Of a DNA stretch of 6,335 bases, positions 1-6,335 are shown in pieces. The stretch lies in assembly GCA_017545365.1 (NCBI GenBank), contig JAFWOP010000169.1:1-6335 (forward strand), read 5' to 3'. Source of the DNA: Bacteroidales bacterium. GTDB lineage: Bacteria; Bacteroidota; Bacteroidia; Bacteroidales; P3. The notes below the pieces were generated by a model. That model ran no database searches, had not been told where the DNA came from, and worked only from the letters and a program-made list of their open reading frames with translations. A program made the position numbers and the translations under genes. Positions within the stretch are counted from its first letter, which is position 1. Each line of letters starts with the position of its first letter.

Positions 1-11
1 GGAAATCATCG

Positions 12-20
12 TAACTTTGC
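12..20 (+). promoter_or_regulatory. Bacteroidota-type -7 promoter box
   Basis: TAACTTTGC matches the Bacteroidota primary-sigma -7 consensus TAnnTTTG exactly. The partner TTG-type -33 element would fall before base 1, so it cannot be checked. Transcription would be expected to start a few bases downstream, around 24-28, leaving a leader of roughly 105 bases before the small gene at 133. The match to the consensus is seen directly; promoter activity is inferred. Confidence 0.65.
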
Positions 21-132
21 ATCGTCAAAACCGCGATTAAGCGAGCAAAGAGCCGAAAGAATTTCGAGCTATTTCGAGCGGAAGCGGCTTCGAATGAAGT
101 TCAAAGTATAAACAATTAATAATAAAAAGATT
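21..132 (+). other. Structured 5' leader of the small gene
   Basis: This untranslated stretch holds several short repeats. There is an inverted repeat CGAAA-gaa-TTTCG at 54-66, a direct repeat ATTTCGAGC at 61-69 and 71-79 (10-base period), a compact hairpin GAAGC-g-GCTTC at 81-91 and an overlapping CTTC-gaat-GAAG at 88-99. Some of these are mutually exclusive, so the RNA could fold in more than one way. The last 30 bases are AT-rich and unstructured up to the ATG, as is usual for Bacteroidota start sites. No known riboswitch class is recognisable. It could be a regulatory leader or a member of a dispersed repeat family. Confidence 0.45.
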
Positions 133-285
133 ATGGCAAAGACAAGAATGATGGTAAAGCAGGTGCTCATGAGCATCGTTACCCTGGTGAGTTTCGTAAT
201 GGCACAGTATGAGGACTTCAACCGCGTGACAAGTATCGGTGGCGGGCTTGTGGGCATGGGCTACTACTCTTCTGAAGACAGGTGA
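133..285 (+). CDS. Small membrane or secreted peptide, 50 residues, unknown function
   Basis: The frame runs from ATG at 133 to TGA at 283-285. Residues 1-10 are basic (K3, R5, K9), followed by a hydrophobic stretch at about 11-24 ending V-M-A, then a polar and glycine-rich tail containing a GGGLVGMGYY segment at 37-46. This is either a signal peptide cleaved near A24, releasing about 26 residues, or a single membrane segment with a short tail. There is no cysteine, so it is not a lipoprotein. ATG at 148 or 151 could also serve as a start, but 133 keeps the basic N-region and follows an AT-rich leader behind a good promoter box. A terminator-like hairpin follows closely. I do not recognise the family. 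It could instead be the remnant N-terminus of a longer decayed gene. The promoter, signal-like N-terminus and terminator together favour a real gene. Confidence 0.6.
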   Translation: MAKTRMMVKQVLMSIVTLVSFVMAQYEDFNRVTSIGGGLVGMGYYSSEDR

Positions 286-308
286 GAGGTGAATGTTTGG
301 AGGAAAAA

Positions 309-362
309 GGAAAGAGGAAAGGGATTAGCGACTGTCGCAGAAGTAATCTCTTTCCTCTTTCC
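309..362. terminator. Bidirectional terminator hairpin between convergent genes
   Basis: The arms at 309-327 and 344-362 are complementary over 19 bases with one mismatch, which is a G-U pair in RNA. The 16-base loop itself contains a perfect small hairpin GCGAC-t-GTCGC (328-338). On the minus strand the stem is followed by TTTTT (304-308 read in reverse), and on the plus strand by a T/C-rich tract. The arms are nearly pure purine and pyrimidine. A second pairing register exists between 305-316 and 369-380. The position, 24 bases after the stop at 285 and 17 bases beyond the stop at 379 of the opposing gene, fits an intrinsic terminator shared by both transcripts. Confidence 0.75.
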
Positions 363-378
363 ACTTTTCTCTTTCCTT

Positions 379-2973
379 TTACTTTAGCCGGAAGGTGGCG
401 AAGAGGGGGAAGTGGTCGCCCAGCGGCTCCTCGTGGTCGGCAGCGAAGCCCGACGGCTTGAAGTAGTCGTGGCTGTTGGCGGCGTTGTCGTAGGTGCAAC
501 TGAGCAGTTCCACGCTGTGGCCTCCAGTGGGGTTGATGTAGAGGATCTTGTCGGGCATCTCACCTCGGATGGTCCATCCCAGGTAGTCGCCGTCATCCTT
601 GATCTTCTTGTCATCTTCCAACTTCGGATATACGCCGTCACGGCACTTCTCTATCCATGCGTCGCCGCAGGTGGCACGGCCCGAGGCATTGATGTAGTCG
701 ATGAAGTTGGCCTTCATGTCGTCGCGGCAGTAGTAGGTATTGAAGTCGCCGATGACGAGTACGGGCCTCGTGTCGAGCTTCGACAGGATGTGCTCGCGGA
801 GCTGTATCCACTGCTTCAGGCGGCATGCGCGGTCCTCATCGTCGGTACCGCCCACCTCGTCCTCGCGCTCGCTGGCCTCCATGTGCATGTTGTAGACCAC
901 CAGCTGGTAGCCCTCGCGGGTGGTGAGTTCATAGCGTCGGAATCCTTTGGTGGCAGCCTCGTCGAGACAGTGGTTGGCATAGCCGTAGCGGTCGTTCCAG
1001 CGCACGCTGTCGGTGCGCACCACGCTGTGATGGCTGCGCCACCAGGCCTTGCAGCCGTCGGTATGGAACACGGCCACGTGGATCCGGTCGTTGAACAGGT
1101 TGCCGAGCGTCATGCCGCCGGCCCAGTTGTCGTGGTCGTAGTTGGCCGTGAGGCAGCGTCCCAGTTCCTTGTCGAAGTCGAAGTTCTCCTGCACGCCGAT
1201 GAAGTCGAAGGCCTTGTCGGCCAGGTAGCGGCTGATGACGGTGGTGAACTCCTTGTCGGGCCCGTCGTTATTGACAAAGTCGAATGCCGGCAGGCCGTCC
1301 ACGTTGAGCGTGCAGACGCTGAACAGCGAGCCGTCGACGGTGCCCGGCGTGCGGAAGTTCTGGTTGATGAGTGCCTCGATGAGCTGCAGGCCAGAGGCGT
1401 CATAGACAGTGTTGCTGTTATAGCCCGGTGTCTGGTCCATGCCGGCATAGTCCATCATGATGATGCCCGTGGCGGCGTTGTGGAGCGGGTTCTTCAGATA
1501 GTCGATGACGAGCCGGTTGGTGCGTGCGGCATTCTCGCGGTAGTGGTCGGAGCATGCCAGTCCCACGTAGCCTGAGGTGTAGTTGAGCACCCAGGCGGGG
1601 GTCTGCGATGTCATGTCGCGGGCGGCAGTGGCATCCAGCATCTTGCGGATGACCTCGTCCTTGCCGGTCAGGTCGGAGCCTGGGTCGTAGTAGTCCTGAG
1701 TCCAGAGGGGTGTCGACTGGCCATTGACACCCTTGATGGTGCCGTTCTGCTGGCGGTCGAAGTGCGCGTTGCTGCTCCAGCCTTTCAGGAATCCGCCGGC
1801 GGTCAGGCCGTCGCAGGCGTCACGCAGGAGCAGCAGCACGCGGCCGCGCAATTCGCCGACCGTGATGTTGGGCTTGAAGTCGGCGAAGAGTCCGCTCAGG
1901 TCGCTGCTGTTAGTCAGTGCGGCGAACTCCTCTGCCCAGGCGTTCTTATCGCGCGTTGCATCCACACTGGAGGTCACGATGCACAGTTCCGTGGGGTTCT
2001 CGGCGAGGAATGCCTTGAGCTTCAGGAAGAAGTCACGGACCAGCAGGTTGGTCTGCACGATGCCGTGACAGCAGCGCAGGTCGTAGCCCATCGTGGCGGC
2101 GTTGTAGACACGCTCCGGGCGCAGGTCGAACACGCGCACACCGGCCTTCAGCTGCTCGTCGATGGTCAGGTCCTGGGTCTTGGCGGTGCTTTCCGATATC
2201 AACTGTTCCACATGCCAGCCCTCACCGGTGCAGGCATCGTGGGTGCCGGGCAGCGAGAGGTCGGCCACCATTCGGCTGTCATTCAGCGGGGCCATCCAGC
2301 GGCTGTGGTCTGCCTTGGGCTTGTAGGCATCGGCAGCAGAGGGGGTGGATGTGCCGCCACCTTGTCCCCACAGATGGTTCAGGTAGTCGGTCATCGTTTC
2401 GTCGGCGGCTGTCAGGCTGATCTCCTGGCCGTTCTGTCCGCTGGCGGTGATGCTGCCGTTGTCATAGTAGAGCGTGGCGCTTGTCGGCGCATTCTCTCTC
2501 CATGGCCATGTGTTGTCTTCAATAGGAGTCATGGCTACCTGCCCTTTGACGATACCGTATTTCTCGTAGGCTGGCGATTGTTCCAGTGTCGATGTGTAGT
2601 CGAAATGGATGATGTTGAAGGCCGTGGGCACCAGATTGCCGTCGGCATAGTAGTAGCGTATCAGGGTGCCATACGACTCGTCTCCCAGGTCGCCGAAGTA
2701 GTAACTGTCCATCACCTGGGTGTAGTCGACGGTGGTTTCCGCCGTCATGTCATCCTTCTTCCAAGCCTTTGTGGTGCCAGTGGCGCTATAGACGGCATAC
2801 CAGTCGCCCGCGATCAGTTCGCCCAGCGGATTCTGGCCTGCGGGGATGGGTACTGCATTGTCGTCGTTGCCGACGCATGCTGTGAGCGACAGTCCCATGA
2901 CCATCGCCACGAGGCAGGCGAGGATGCTGCTCATCCTCCTGCCACTGATTGATTTGAAATTCACCATATTCAT
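379..2973 (-). CDS. Lipoprotein fusing a PI-PLC X domain to an EEP (sphingomyelinase-like) phosphodiesterase domain
   Basis: This is an 864-residue predicted surface or outer-membrane lipoprotein. A basic N-region (K7, R12, R13), hydrophobic core and lipobox LTAC give the lipidated Cys33, followed by an acidic GNDDN stretch that resembles a Bacteroidota surface-export signal. Residues 46-205 are a module shared with the upstream gene. Residues about 225-535 are a PI-PLC X barrel: LPGTHD carries His245-Asp246, FDLR carries Asp283 and Arg285, and CCHG carries His303, matching the two catalytic histidines and their helpers in bacterial PI-PLC. Residues about 549-863 are an EEP domain: Asn557 in TLNVDGLP, Glu596 in GVQEN, His697 in YNMHMEA, Asp743 and Asn745 in GDFN, and Asp853-His854 in GDHFP, the full Mg-dependent set of neutral sphingomyelinases and DNase I-like enzymes. 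Both domains look active; substrates are unproven. The start was chosen at 2973 (the in-frame ATG at 2967 is as good), 22 bases after the upstream gene, with a weak GGAAAG nearby. Confidence 0.92.
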   Translation of the reverse strand: MNMVNFKSISGRRMSSILACLVAMVMGLSLTACVGNDDNAVPIPAGQNPLGELIAGDWYAVYSATGTTKAWKKDDMTAETTVDYTQVMDSYYFGDLGDESYGTLIRYYYADGNLVPTAFNIIHFDYTSTLEQSPAYEKYGIVKGQVAMTPIEDNTWPWRENAPTSATLYYDNGSITASGQNGQEISLTAADETMTDYLNHLWGQGGGTSTPSAADAYKPKADHSRWMAPLNDSRMVADLSLPGTHDACTGEGWHVEQLISESTAKTQDLTIDEQLKAGVRVFDLRPERVYNAATMGYDLRCCHGIVQTNLLVRDFFLKLKAFLAENPTELCIVTSSVDATRDKNAWAEEFAALTNSSDLSGLFADFKPNITVGELRGRVLLLLRDACDGLTAGGFLKGWSSNAHFDRQQNGTIKGVNGQSTPLWTQDYYDPGSDLTGKDEVIRKMLDATAARDMTSQTPAWVLNYTSGYVGLACSDHYRENAARTNRLVIDYLKNPLHNAATGIIMMDYAGMDQTPGYNSNTVYDASGLQLIEALINQNFRTPGTVDGSLFSVCTLNVDGLPAFDFVNNDGPDKEFTTVISRYLADKAFDFIGVQENFDFDKELGRCLTANYDHDNWAGGMTLGNLFNDRIHVAVFHTDGCKAWWRSHHSVVRTDSVRWNDRYGYANHCLDEAATKGFRRYELTTREGYQLVVYNMHMEASEREDEVGGTDDEDRACRLKQWIQLREHILSKLDTRPVLVIGDFNTYYCRDDMKANFIDYINASGRATCGDAWIEKCRDGVYPKLEDDKKIKDDGDYLGWTIRGEMPDKILYINPTGGHSVELLSCTYDNAANSHDYFKPSGFAADHEEPLGDHFPLFATFRLK
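382..1329 (-). other. EEP / neutral-sphingomyelinase-like catalytic domain (residues about 549-863)
   Basis: The domain opens with SVCTLNVDGLP, directly after a short linker (RTPGTVDGS) from the PI-PLC barrel, and closes with GDHFPLFATF at the end of the protein. Asn557, Glu596, His697, Asp743, Asn745 and His854 correspond to the metal-binding and catalytic residues of the family. PDKILYI (807-813) matches the DKI/DRI strand found in phosphodiesterases of this superfamily. EEP domains include sphingomyelinases, DNases and inositol polyphosphate phosphatases, and sequence alone does not separate these here. The lipoprotein context and the fused PI-PLC make a phospholipid or phosphoinositol substrate the better guess. 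Confidence 0.85.
1369..2301 (-). other. PI-PLC X catalytic domain (residues about 225-535)
   Basis: The domain begins at WMAPL-x-DSRM and ends just after the strand GIIMMDYAG. The first catalytic pair is His245-Asp246, the Asp283/Arg285 pair follows in VFDLRPE, and the second catalytic histidine is His303. Two cysteines (301, 302) sit immediately before this histidine, which is unusual. In known bacterial enzymes this fold cleaves phosphatidylinositol to diacylglycerol and cyclic inositol phosphate without calcium. Its length of about 310 residues is normal for the family, so this is a complete domain, not a fragment. Confidence 0.88.
2359..2838 (-). other. Shared N-terminal module, copy in the phospholipase lipoprotein (residues 46-205)
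   Basis: This segment starts at NPL shortly after the lipid anchor and aligns along its length with residues 44-200 of the neighbouring 477-residue lipoprotein. Shared landmarks in order are NPL, WY, Y-x-A-x-GT, K-x-W, V-(D/E)-Y-(T/S)-x-VMD-x-Y-x-F, R-x-(Y/F)-(Y/F) with D four residues on, Y-(T/S)-(S/T)-T, a (A/V)TL-x-YD strand and a final (D/E)-(E/D)-x-(M/L) helix ending in WG. It is rich in aromatic and beta-prone residues, suggesting a small beta-sandwich or beta-barrel fold. No catalytic motif is visible. It ends in a Gly/Ser/Thr linker (GQGGGTSTPS) leading to the PI-PLC domain. I cannot name the family. Confidence 0.75.
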
Positions 2974-2995
2974 TTTACAATTTTCTTTCCAAATC

Positions 2996-4429
2996 CTACA
3001 GTCCTTTCGGCACGGCCTTCAGCTTGGGGCATCCGGAGAACACCGTCTCGTCGATCTTGGAGTAGAACTGGCCAGGTGTCACGGTGAGCAGGCTGGTGCA
3101 GTTGGCAAAGGCATACTTGCCGAACTTCAGGTTGTCGTTATGGCAGGTGAGCGTGATCAGGCTGGTGCAGCCCTCGAAGGCATAGTCGCCTACGCTTGCC
3201 AATTTCTTGGGCAGAATCAGCGGGTTGAAGCCAGCACAGTTGCGGAAGGCCTCAGCCTCGATGTCGACCACGCAGTCGGGAATCTCTAACGACATCAGCC
3301 CTCGGCAGCCGTAGAAGGCGCGACGGGGGATGGTCACCAGACCCTCGCGGCTGAGCGACACCGTGGTCATGCTGGGGCAGTTCTCAAAGCAGCTCTCGCC
3401 CATCTCATTCACGCCGGGCATGTTGGCCGTCTTCAGGTTTGTGCAGTTCATGTAGACCTCCTTGCCCAGTACGGTGCAACTGGCGGGGACGGTGGCCGTC
3501 ACCAGACTCTTGCAGCCCTTGAAGGCCTCGTCGCCGATTTTCTGTATGCCGCAGTCGGTCAGGTTGATGCTGCGCAGATGCTTCAGGCCGCGGAAGGCTC
3601 CCGGGCCGATCCTGCTGATGAGGTACACCTGTGCGGTGCTGATAAACGAGGTGTTGTGATAGCTGTCCACGCTGATATCGGTGAGATTGTAGTCTGTGAC
3701 ACCAATGATGGCCGCGCGCTTGTTGGCCTCCAAGAGGTAGCACAGGCCGTGCCAGTCGAGGGTGGCGATGCCTTCGAGGCTGATGATGCCTGCTCCGGCG
3801 GCAGCGGCTCCGGCACCTGCGGCCTCATCCTCCGGGCCACCCCATTCCACGATGATTTTACTCAGCTCATCACTGGCGGGCAGCAGTATGATGTCATTTC
3901 CGTTGATACCTTTGCCGGCGATGTTGTCGTCGTCGTAGAGCAGCGTCACGTCTTCAGGCGTTTCCCCGTAGAAAGTGTCTTCCTTGAAATCGATAATCAC
4001 ACGGCCACTGCCCAGGTCTTCGTCGCCGGCCTGCGGTCTTTCCTCCGTTGTACTGTAATAGAATTCGTTGGTTCGCACACCATGAGGCTTGAACTCGGTG
4101 TCGCTGAAGTAGAAGCGTCTTCTATAACCCGTCTTTCGTCCAGTAAAATTGTACACATCCATGACGTGTGAATACTCTACCGTCGCCCTGTGGACGGCAT
4201 CGCCGTTTTCGTCCCACGTCTTGGCTACCACCGTGCCCTCGGCATCGTAGATGGAATACCACAACTCACCATAGAGTCGGTCAAGCAGCGGATTGTCGTC
4301 AGTGGGGAGAACGGTTGGCTCACTGACCGGGGAGTCGGGCACGCTACAAGCCGTGAGGAACGCTGCACCACTGCACACCAGCATGGCGGTGAACAGCCAT
4401 TGTCTGAGATTTTTCTTCATAACGATCAT
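2996..4429 (-). CDS. BspA-like leucine-rich-repeat lipoprotein
   Basis: This 477-residue lipoprotein has a basic N-region (KKNLRQ), a hydrophobic core and lipobox LTAC with lipidated Cys28. Residues 44-200 are the module shared with the downstream phospholipase lipoprotein. Residues 201-214 are an Ala/Gly linker, 215-274 a short non-repeat cap, and 275-477 eight full plus one partial repeat of about 23 residues with the pattern G-x-x-AF-x-x-C-x-x-L-x-x-(V/L)-x-(I/L)P, the TpLRR/BspA class (LRR_5). In this class the repeats form a solenoid that binds proteins or glycans and often mediates adhesion; the ligand here is unknown. The longest start is 4429, but ATG at 4420 (MKKN...) gives the more typical signal peptide and may be the true start. 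The stop lies 22 bases before the next gene, so the two are probably co-transcribed. The protein ends within a repeat with no visible C-terminal sorting domain. Confidence 0.9.
   Translation of the reverse strand: MIVMKKNLRQWLFTAMLVCSGAAFLTACSVPDSPVSEPTVLPTDDNPLLDRLYGELWYSIYDAEGTVVAKTWDENGDAVHRATVEYSHVMDVYNFTGRKTGYRRRFYFSDTEFKPHGVRTNEFYYSTTEERPQAGDEDLGSGRVIIDFKEDTFYGETPEDVTLLYDDDNIAGKGINGNDIILLPASDELSKIIVEWGGPEDEAAGAGAAAAGAGIISLEGIATLDWHGLCYLLEANKRAAIIGVTDYNLTDISVDSYHNTSFISTAQVYLISRIGPGAFRGLKHLRSINLTDCGIQKIGDEAFKGCKSLVTATVPASCTVLGKEVYMNCTNLKTANMPGVNEMGESCFENCPSMTTVSLSREGLVTIPRRAFYGCRGLMSLEIPDCVVDIEAEAFRNCAGFNPLILPKKLASVGDYAFEGCTSLITLTCHNDNLKFGKYAFANCTSLLTVTPGQFYSKIDETVFSGCPKLKAVPKGL
2999..3607 (-). 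repeat. TpLRR / BspA-type leucine-rich repeats (residues 275-477)
   Basis: Repeat units begin at residues 275 (GPGAFRGLKHL), 299 (GDEAFKGCKSL), 322 (GKEVYMNCTNL), 344 (GESCFENCPSM), 368 (PRRAFYGCRGL), 391 (EAEAFRNCAGF), 414 (GDYAFEGCTSL), 437 (GKYAFANCTSL) and 460 (DETVFSGCPKL). Spacing is 22-24 residues. From the second unit on, each carries the buried cysteine at the (N/G)C position. The ninth unit is cut short by the stop codon. The repeats have diverged at DNA level, so the array looks old rather than freshly expanded. Confidence 0.9.
3830..4300 (-). other. Shared N-terminal module, copy in the LRR lipoprotein (residues 44-200)
   Basis: This segment runs from NPLLDRLYGELWYS to KIIVEWGG and aligns with residues 46-205 of the phospholipase lipoprotein (landmarks are listed under that copy). 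Its version is more acidic and ends in an EDEAAGAGAAAAGAG linker rather than a Gly/Ser/Thr one. The two copies are clearly diverged, so this is not a recent tandem duplication. Its position between lipid anchor and effector domain in both proteins suggests an anchoring, spacing or partner-docking role, which is inference. Confidence 0.75.
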
Positions 4430-4525
4430 TTTTTTATACGTGTATTTCAGATATTTGCGGCTTTTTATCGCATTTTACTGATTCAGCGGGGTTCACCGTC
4501 GGTGACGGCTACCGCCTATCACAGC
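4430..4525 (-). other. Intergenic gap with overlapping small palindromes
   Basis: This 96-base gap separates the upstream large gene from the LRR lipoprotein gene. On the plus strand it contains TCACCG-t-CGGTGA (4493-4505) overlapping CCGTC-ggt-GACGG (4496-4508), so two alternative hairpins are possible just past the upstream stop. No U-tract follows, so it is at best a weak terminator; a processing site or operator is also possible. The part next to the lipoprotein start is A-rich when read on the minus strand. I find no TAnnTTTG promoter box on the minus strand here, so read-through from the upstream gene is plausible. Confidence 0.4.
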
Positions 4526-6335
4526 TTAATTAATAGCATTTGGGTAGATGAGTTTCATCTTGTCCAGCATGCGCTGCTTGTGGAGTTCGTATGTGGGATT
4601 GTAGTCGGGGTATTTCTGGTAATAGCTGGGGCCTTTTTTTACCCTGTTCCACAGCGCTACCCATTCGTCGGCTTTCAACTGCCATGCCAGGAACTCGATT
4701 TCGGGCAGGAACTCGCCGCTGTACATGAACTTCTTGCCGTTGCTCTTGAGTTTGACGGTGACAACGACATTGACCACGACAGGTGGAGCAGTGCAGCATT
4801 TGCTCTCGTCTTTAGTGGACATCATCGGCTCGATGATGAATTTGGGCGTGCCGAATATTGACAAGTTATCGGTCATACCAGCTCCCCATATGCCCATATT
4901 CAGGTCTTCATTGCTTGACTTGTGCATTATCGAAATCGGGAAACAGACGTCCTCAGGCATACGATCGTAGAGATTCTCCCTAGAGTAGAAGTTTCCAATT
5001 GTATTCCAAGCCTGAAGGTCGGAAAGATCGATCTTCGTCTGGATATTGCTATTTGTGTAGTTGCTCTGGTAAATCTTACGGTCCTTCAGTCCCAGGGCCG
5101 AGCGGTACTTGTCGATGCTTGACCACGAAGTGCCGTCACGTACCAGACAGACGGCATCGACCCGCAACGAGTCCACATCGTCGCCGAACACTTCGGGATT
5201 CAGATCCACTTCAATGCTGCTGGGATCGAAGAACCATACGCATCCATAGGGCCGGGTTGCGAGAGATTCTGTTGTCATGACGTTGGTCATATAGATCTTG
5301 GGGCTGGACTTGAGGCTCCATACGCCCTTGCCGAGACCGGTGCCCTTCAGTTTGAAATTCTTGCCGATGCTCATCTCGGACGATACGATTTCATCGACTT
5401 TGGTGTACGCCTTGATGGTGCCTTCGGTAGAGGCATTGGCAGTGAGTGCCAGATTGATGGTGGCGTTCATGGTGCCTTTGAAACCCGTCAGTTTGTCTTG
5501 TCCGTATTCGGTGCAGATGTCGCCAATGGTACCCAAAGCATTACCGATGTTGGCTATGCCGCCAGCAGGATCTTTCCCGATAAAACTGGCTATGCCGGCC
5601 CCAATATCGGCGGCGCCCTTGAGGGCCTTGAAGACGGTGCCGCATACCTTGGCGGCCTTATTGCCCTTCTGGAATTGTGCCTGTAGGTTGATATCGCCTT
5701 TCAGTGAACCGTCGAGTGAGCCTTGTATGGCGGTGACCAGCGTCACGTTGGACGTCGTGGTCTCGTCGACCCACATCTTGATTAAATTGTCGGTGAGGTC
5801 CACGTCGGGGCGGTAGGTCGACAAGTCCAGGTCGAAGGCCCACCATCCCTGCCTGGGAACGATGCCGTCAGTGGTGAGGTCGACCTCCGTCCATGGTGTG
5901 ATACTCATGTAGAGTTTGTCGCTCTGCGACACACCTTCCAGTCCGAATGTCTCAGGCTTGGTAATGGTCACGTCCTGCGGAATGGAGTATATCATGGGCG
6001 AGCGGTACACCATGTCGCCATTTAAGCGTACGCACCAGTAGTGGTCGTTGCCATCGCCACTTTTTGCCGGCATGTAGTAGAACATGCGCAGGATGCCTAA
6101 GTACTTGTTGTACAGGGCAAAAAAGTTCTCATTGGCAATAGCACTGTTGCCACAGCGGTTCATCACCAGTTCCCAGCCGTTCTCTGGGGTGATGTCGTCG
6201 CAGAAATTCATGGGGAGGTTGCTCTGTCTGTCGCTATCGTTCCAGGGCAGGGGCACCTTAATATATCCCCGGTATATGACATCGGCTACGTCATAGTCCT
6301 TGCCGGTGTAGAGATAGATGTCCTGCTTCGCGCGC
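4526..6335 (-). CDS. Large protein of unknown function, C-terminal 602 residues (start outside window)
   Basis: The reading frame stays open to the right edge of the window, so the N-terminus, any signal peptide and the true length are unknown. A GTG at 6254-6256 is not a credible start because an in-frame, protein-like sequence continues upstream of it. Visible residues 50-110 are rich in aromatic residues (NGWELVMN, FFALYNKYLGILRMFYY, HYWCVRLNG) and beta-prone. Residues about 231-275 are Gly/Ala/Ile-rich with small residues at regular spacing, like a glycine-zipper or membrane-interacting helix pair. Residues 285-310 are Thr/Asn-rich beta strands. Near the C-terminus are a CC pair (513-514), a Val-rich strand and a basic, Tyr-rich tail (about 565-600). 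I see no enzyme motif. It has the look of an exported Bacteroidota surface protein, but export cannot be shown. It lies upstream of, and in the same direction as, the two lipoprotein genes. Confidence 0.8.
   Translation of the reverse strand, partial: RAKQDIYLYTGKDYDVADVIYRGYIKVPLPWNDSDRQSNLPMNFCDDITPENGWELVMNRCGNSAIANENFFALYNKYLGILRMFYYMPAKSGDGNDHYWCVRLNGDMVYRSPMIYSIPQDVTITKPETFGLEGVSQSDKLYMSITPWTEVDLTTDGIVPRQGWWAFDLDLSTYRPDVDLTDNLIKMWVDETTTSNVTLVTAIQGSLDGSLKGDINLQAQFQKGNKAAKVCGTVFKALKGAADIGAGIASFIGKDPAGGIANIGNALGTIGDICTEYGQDKLTGFKGTMNATINLALTANASTEGTIKAYTKVDEIVSSEMSIGKNFKLKGTGLGKGVWSLKSSPKIYMTNVMTTESLATRPYGCVWFFDPSSIEVDLNPEVFGDDVDSLRVDAVCLVRDGTSWSSIDKYRSALGLKDRKIYQSNYTNSNIQTKIDLSDLQAWNTIGNFYSRENLYDRMPEDVCFPISIMHKSSNEDLNMGIWGAGMTDNLSIFGTPKFIIEPMMSTKDESKCCTAPPVVVNVVVTVKLKSNGKKFMYSGEFLPEIEFLAWQLKADEWVALWNRVKKGPSYYQKYPDYNPTYELHKQRMLDKMKLIYPNAIN
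5510..5644 (-). other. Glycine-zipper-like segment in the unknown protein
   Basis: Visible residues 231-275 start at CGTVFKALKG and contain repeated G/A-x-x-x-G/A spacing (GAADIGAGIASFIG, then AGGIANIGNALGTIGDI), split by a KDP turn, and end near a second cysteine. Two short amphipathic or hydrophobic helices packed through small residues would fit. Such segments occur in membrane-inserting or oligomerising proteins, but also in soluble linkers, so function is open. Confidence 0.45.

Follow-up and report, generated by a model that had tools for sequence, protein, structure and literature searches.

Why would a single bacterial lipoprotein carry two mechanistically different phosphodiesterases, a phosphatidylinositol-specific phospholipase C (PI-PLC) X domain and an endonuclease/exonuclease/phosphatase (EEP) domain resembling neutral sphingomyelinases? 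The question is raised by a gene in a 6,335-nt stretch of DNA (hereafter the window) from a Bacteroidales bacterium (P3; GCA_017545365.1, contig JAFWOP010000169.1, positions 1-6,335). Its open reading frame (ORF) starts with ATG, contains no internal stops and encodes 864 aa (Table 1). Judging from the sequences compared, the fusion is a real, conserved and lineage-restricted architecture made from two known enzyme types, with a plausible function. We lean, by a little more than even confidence, towards a surface-anchored, two-headed phospholipase C that would act on inositol glycerolipids and on a phosphosphingolipid, its products being finished by neighbouring proteins; the activity of both heads is predicted. 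In a literature search of titles and the starts of abstracts, with most subscription papers outside its coverage, a PI-PLC/EEP fusion appeared in no paper found.

An earlier note on this DNA had proposed two different phosphodiesterase domains in one chain, and this was borne out. The PI-PLC half matched the Bacillus cereus PI-PLC with an E of 2.2e-15 and the excised EEP half matched PF03372 with an E of 1.7e-5 (25.2 bits, cut-off 24.5), so the assignments are not due to chance, and both folds come out in the predicted model of the fusion chain. Note that in the whole protein both domains fall below the curated Pfam cut-offs (PF03372, 22.4 versus 24.5 bits; PI-PLC-X, 17 versus 23.1 bits), so an architecture search at those cut-offs would miss it. 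Every active-site residue that had been named was found in its place (H245, D283, R285 and H303; N557, E596, H697, D743, N745, D853 and H854), and our comparison adds D508, R384, D427 and Y429 in the PI-PLC half and D671/K676 in the EEP half.

The PI-PLC half has the X fold of the bacterial enzymes of B. cereus type (PF00388). In the B. cereus enzyme we take H32, D67, R69, H82 and D274 to be catalytic, and R163, D198, Y200 and K115 to contact the inositol. The catalytic five align to H245, D283, R285, H303 and D508, which are kept in 46-47 of 47 PI-PLC relatives (D508 in all 47), and the inositol-contact equivalents R384, D427 and Y429 are kept in 44, 46 and 38 of them. Across the fusions the site is altered in P0008 (D427N) and P0016 (H303N) and otherwise kept; in P0016 the residue replaced is the general acid. 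Unlike the PI-PLCs of B. cereus, Staphylococcus aureus and Listeria, this one is part of a larger lipoprotein, and its family differs from the B. cereus type in its sub-threshold score, in D246, which is substituted in 6 of the 47 relatives, and at the K115 position, considered below.

The EEP half bears the N, E, H, D, N, D, H set and the DK pair, as do human SMPD2 (nSMase1), yeast Isc1 and bacterial sphingomyelinase (SMase) C. For human SMPD2 (hSMPD2), the published account gives N15, E49, H136, D178 and H272 as Mg2+ ligands or catalytic residues and D111-K116 as the DK switch (PMC10682184); paired by motif order, not by structural alignment, the first five correspond to N557, E596, H697, D743 and H854. 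These are kept in 136-137 of 137 EEP relatives, and the D671/K676 pair, with the i, i+5 spacing of D111-K116, is present in all 137, a count that includes the whole EEP domain of P0020. The stand-alone EEPs of the same subfamily (604 matches at E <= 0.001; 41-52% identical for the stand-alone ones among the best 120 of these) have the catalytic and DK residues in common with the fusion.

The EEP half could not be assigned clearly to a family by single-sequence or plain profile searches of the PDB; its placement comes only from its fold and from one bridge sequence, L142. In the fold comparison with VIA the best match was nSMase1 (8j2f), with about 20% identity to SMPD2. The reasons for choosing L142 were that a PF22669 search had found it and that the EEP profile gave it 91 bits. 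It bears the DK pair and aligns there to B. cereus SMase. Its PDB matches are sphingomyelinases and beta-hemolysin only, and through it the EEP profile reaches B. cereus SMase with an E of 2.4e-6, a value that depends partly on this one sequence. Against the SMase C model TIGR03395, L142 scored 33.7 bits (cut-off 248.2). On VIA's ranking, though not on Foldseek's, and in sequence through one bridge, the EEP half comes closer to sphingomyelinases than to nucleases, in line with the earlier note.

We next consider how widespread the architecture is. A search of 5.8 billion proteins, with scoring restricted to the 7,995 candidates that shared most words with the query, gave 53 matches, 17 of them with both domains in the fusion order; P0001, 97% identical, may come from the window's own species. 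Scanning 84,980 species, each represented by one genome, with two short EEP peptide patterns yielded 11 loci, all titled Prevotella, and for five of these (four assemblies) the named source was the rumen or abomasum of sheep, goat or cattle. In a sample of 299 genomes of the host genus, 111 had some match, and the places listed held seven full fusions and one, in G109, cut by a contig end; a phylum sample of 395 genomes, searched at E 1e-20, gave nothing but the host genome and a single PI-PLC match. On the earlier note's question of how Bacteroidota-specific the architecture is, the answer is narrower: among named genomes the architecture appears to be confined to Prevotella.

A tree of 58 EEP domains grouped all 18 fusions, that of the window among them, in a single clade (support 100/100). 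The PI-PLC tree (40 rows) did not gather the fusions into one clade, placed the reverse-order protein P0021 elsewhere on a long branch, and says little. The EEP of P0021 falls among the 39 stand-alone EEPs sampled, outside the fusion clade, so the pairing arose twice if this protein is real. P0021 lies on one contig and could be an assembly join, although its joint is in frame and its C-terminal tail resembles those of its stand-alone relatives; among the places listed for it in 399 family genomes, its halves occurred only as separate genes, save for the window-type fusion of G008. P0020 (an EEP behind a SpoIIE-type domain) and P0025 both look like assembly joins. In locus L011 (7902-8600; G009), one of the 11 from the species scan, a 232 aa ORF runs in frame from fusion residues about 203-252 straight into 721-864; most of both active sites is gone, through either a deletion or an assembly fault. 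L007 and L008 are near-alike fusion loci on two contigs of one metagenome-assembled genome, reflecting either a recent duplication or assembly redundancy.

The lipid anchor proposed in the earlier note was supported by a lipobox whose C33 is invariant in the 17 aligned fusions. Acid-rich residues follow the Cys in the 18 fusion N-termini compared, and acid-rich export signals mark surface-exposed lipoproteins of Bacteroidetes, according to PMC5080379; from this resemblance we infer that the protein is surface-exposed. SMPD2, by contrast, is described as held by C-terminal transmembrane helices rather than by an N-terminal lipid (PMC10682184). Behind the anchor lies the N-domain, which is shuffled among neighbouring genes. 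A fusion-type N-domain stands ahead of an esterase-type body in P0029 (65%) and of a FAM1-type body in P0030 (59%), FAM1 being the family of a gene upstream of the fusion. Other lipoproteins (P0022-P0024, P0026-P0028) have the N-domain and PI-PLC, 41-44% identical over both, and end after the PI-PLC. On the plus strand of the window, a short ORF at 133-285 (50 codons, read by eye) starts like the leader common to lipoproteins of these loci (VKxVLMSIVT) and is perhaps a truncated gene start.

The neighbourhood was compared in nine host genomes. Six of them have, no more than 10 kb from the fusion, a lipase-like alpha/beta hydrolase that resembles the solved esterase 3h2g (4.7e-6) and matches secretory lipase PF03583 at a score under its cut-off. 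In six, one of them with only a fragment, a PF13350 phosphatase (PtpB, 4.7e-14) is found on the fusion contig within 12 kb; of the remaining three, two have copies of the phosphatase at other places and the third lacks it. Some fusion loci also contain genes for a metallophosphoesterase, a C13 peptidase, a TonB-dependent receptor or an AraC-type protein. A secretory-lipase-like hydrolase also adjoins the stand-alone EEP genes in 10 of 20 stretches. Judging by the nine host genomes, in each of which the hydrolase query has between one and six matches even with those to the N-domain alone counted, this looks far above what scattered genes would give. This adjacency is our main non-structural reason for thinking that the EEP acts on lipids.

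All nine host genomes have a FAM1-like gene no more than about 7 kb from the fusion, in some cases only distantly similar. In a sample of 200 genomes of the genus, 17 have one at E 1e-15, including the fusion-bearing G008, G109 and G004. Members of FAM1 (the one in the window; L010 3940-6300) are lipoproteins of about 600-1030 aa with 122 database relatives. The FAM1 model (pLDDT, a per-residue confidence score, about 36-73) has two strand pairs (383-408, 467-495), alternating in hydrophobicity, that flank a helical hairpin (420-464), the layout of some membrane-inserting proteins, and its fold search gave nothing credible beyond the N-domain. The FAM1-like gene has a TonB-dependent receptor gene upstream in L005, L006 and L011, an arrangement that would suit import of a released product, and in L011 a phosphatase and the FAM1-like gene adjoin the deleted remnant. 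In L010 a 708 aa lipoprotein follows the fusion (10628-12754); its residues 416-491 weakly resemble Clostridium perfringens enterotoxin (E 0.041), and its relatives share stretches with stand-alone PI-PLC genes in L053, L054 and L055.

As we picture it, the PI-PLC head would cleave phosphatidylinositol (PI), and possibly glycosylphosphatidylinositol, by the B. cereus route to diacylglycerol and (cyclic) inositol phosphate, presumably with H245/D508 as base, H303 as acid, R285 replacing Ca2+, and R384, D427 and Y429 holding the inositol. In the EEP head the chemistry would follow that of neutral sphingomyelinases: N557 and E596 would hold Mg2+, H697, D743, N745, H854 and the DK lysine K676 would engage the scissile phosphate, and a phosphosphingolipid would be cut into ceramide and a phospho-headgroup. 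Acyl chains and phosphate would then be removed from the products by neighbouring lipoproteins, namely the lipase-like esterase, the PtpB-type phosphatase and the metallophosphoesterase, and the outcome may be scavenging of lipid, phosphate and inositol, or attack on foreign membranes.

As to possible substrates, Heaver and colleagues report that Bacteroidetes make PI-diacylglycerol, PI-dihydroceramide and phosphoethanolamine (PE)-dihydroceramide, and that a putative inositol-lipid cluster is common in Prevotella (PMC9246714), so the surrounding community may itself supply suitable substrates. The lipids of gut hosts, put forward in the earlier note, are possible, but since the named sources are ruminant rumen and abomasum, lipids from the diet, from protozoa or from bacteria are equally plausible. 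Plants, fungi and protozoa carry inositol lipids on both backbones as well, plants and protozoa being further sources of substrate. Unlikely, though worth stating, is that one enzyme covers both phosphoinositol-lipid backbones, with the PI-PLC head acting on PI-diacylglycerol, the Isc1/nSMase-like head on inositol phosphoceramide, and the esterase and phosphatases finishing both. If true, this would make up a bacterial system dedicated to digesting inositol lipids, with the phosphoinositol headgroup as the shared feature.

Several results weigh against a two-headed phospholipase C. The K115 position is S336 in the fusion and variable among the 47 PI-PLC relatives. TIGR03395 left the fusion protein unmatched up to E 1, EEP profiles A2 and A6, with the bridge left out, found no SMase in the PDB (their weak best matches were ExoIII-like or unrelated), and Foldseek placed TDP2 first for the EEP half (5ino, 2.8e-11). 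Where hSMPD2 has the lipid-stabilising W17 and W51, two residues beyond N and E, this protein has D559 and F598, and the loss of W17 counts against the likeness; both tryptophans are reported to differ in SMPD3 too (PMC10682184). The bare DK pattern also occurs in 2 of 23 other EEP ORFs (L127, L135; positions unaligned, one ORF of stated length per locus), so it is not exclusive. Finally, in a split-gene (Rosetta-stone) test of 40 picks, with stretches of 5-19.5 kb, many ended by contig ends, EEP was absent from 19 of 20 stretches around separate PI-PLC genes and about 15 kb off in the other (L063), and PI-PLC was found in none of 20 around separate EEP genes. Since the separately encoded genes are not close neighbours in these stretches, the idea of an obligatory pair is weakened, and this is the main result against a strict partnership; the interpretation in the earlier note is partly supported.

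The unlinked genes, the TDP2 match and the shuffled N-domain would suit an EEP head that is an extracellular nuclease or general phosphodiesterase, joined by lipoprotein domain shuffling without joint function. So would the weak NCBIfam matches among 25 EEPs, mostly to nuclease models (ExeM/NucH 17/25, ExoIII 9/25); for the window's EEP piece, the only curated nuclease model listed was ExeM/NucH (E 0.047, 12.6 bits versus 300). However, the DK pair and the bridge to SMase, the esterase beside half of the stand-alone EEP stretches, and the single EEP clade of fusions with both sites kept, save in P0016 and P0008, make this improbable. We give slightly less credence to a phosphoinositide or inositol-phosphate phosphatase of 5-phosphatase type that would trim inositol lipids or the PI-PLC product, both heads then releasing inositol phosphate. 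PF22669 (5-phosphatase type, Exo_endo_phos2) matches 9 of the 25 EEPs at E <= 0.01 (best 3.9e-5), with no listed match for the window piece; INPP5K is among the EEP profile matches (E 0.51), a PtpB-type phosphatase is nearby, and D808-K-I-L resembles what we take to be the 5-phosphatase CDRIL motif. Yet the DK pair is universal in the EEP relatives, and we know of no 5-phosphatase with an Asp at that place; L142, though from the PF22669 search, matches only sphingomyelinases and beta-hemolysin in the PDB; and VIA favours nSMase1, without excluding 5-phosphatases, which are absent from the 50 matches listed. Similarly doubtful is a reading in which the same chemistry serves to damage the membranes of protozoa, host cells or competing bacteria instead of nutrition, with FAM1 and the 708 aa protein helping to breach them, since the FAM1 hairpin and the enterotoxin likeness that suggest it are both at noise level, FAM1 has no credible fold match beyond its N-domain, and the esterase and phosphatases fit feeding.

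Table 1. Positions of the fusion gene, its parts and its neighbours in the window
Feature	Position	Strand	Basis
Fusion gene: lipoprotein of 864 aa with beta-barrel N-domain, PI-PLC X and EEP (neutral-sphingomyelinase-like) domains	379..2973	-	ORF, family matches, model, 17 two-domain relatives
Signal peptide and lipobox, residues 1-33 (LTAC, +1 Cys33, then VGNDD)	2875..2973	-	C33 invariance, N-terminus comparison
N-terminal beta-strand domain, residues about 47-205; relatives start several neighbouring lipoproteins	2359..2835	-	
PI-PLC X domain, residues 221-542 (H245, D283, R285, H303, R384, D427, Y429, D508)	1348..2313	-	
EEP domain, residues 546-864 (N557, E596, H697, D743, N745, D853, H854)	382..1338	-	
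DK-switch-like motif of the EEP domain, D671-x4-K676-G677	943..963	-	conserved pair, hSMPD2 D111-K116 spacing
Lipoprotein of 477 aa with BspA-type leucine-rich repeats, upstream, 22 bp before the fusion	2996..4429	-	LRR_5 E 1.4e-44
FAM1 family member, upstream, open at window end	4526..6334	-	no Pfam match at cut-off

Commensal Bacteroidota have been studied as makers of sphingolipids and inositol lipids; the enzymes by which they might break such lipids down, whether of dietary, protozoal, host or neighbour origin, have, to our knowledge, been little studied. As a putative two-headed phospholipase C, the fusion is a concrete candidate for the breakdown of both lipid classes in one chain, and one that can be tested with few point mutants. 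It also suggests that a large endonuclease/exonuclease/phosphatase family (604 matches) may be relatives of neutral sphingomyelinases rather than nucleases.
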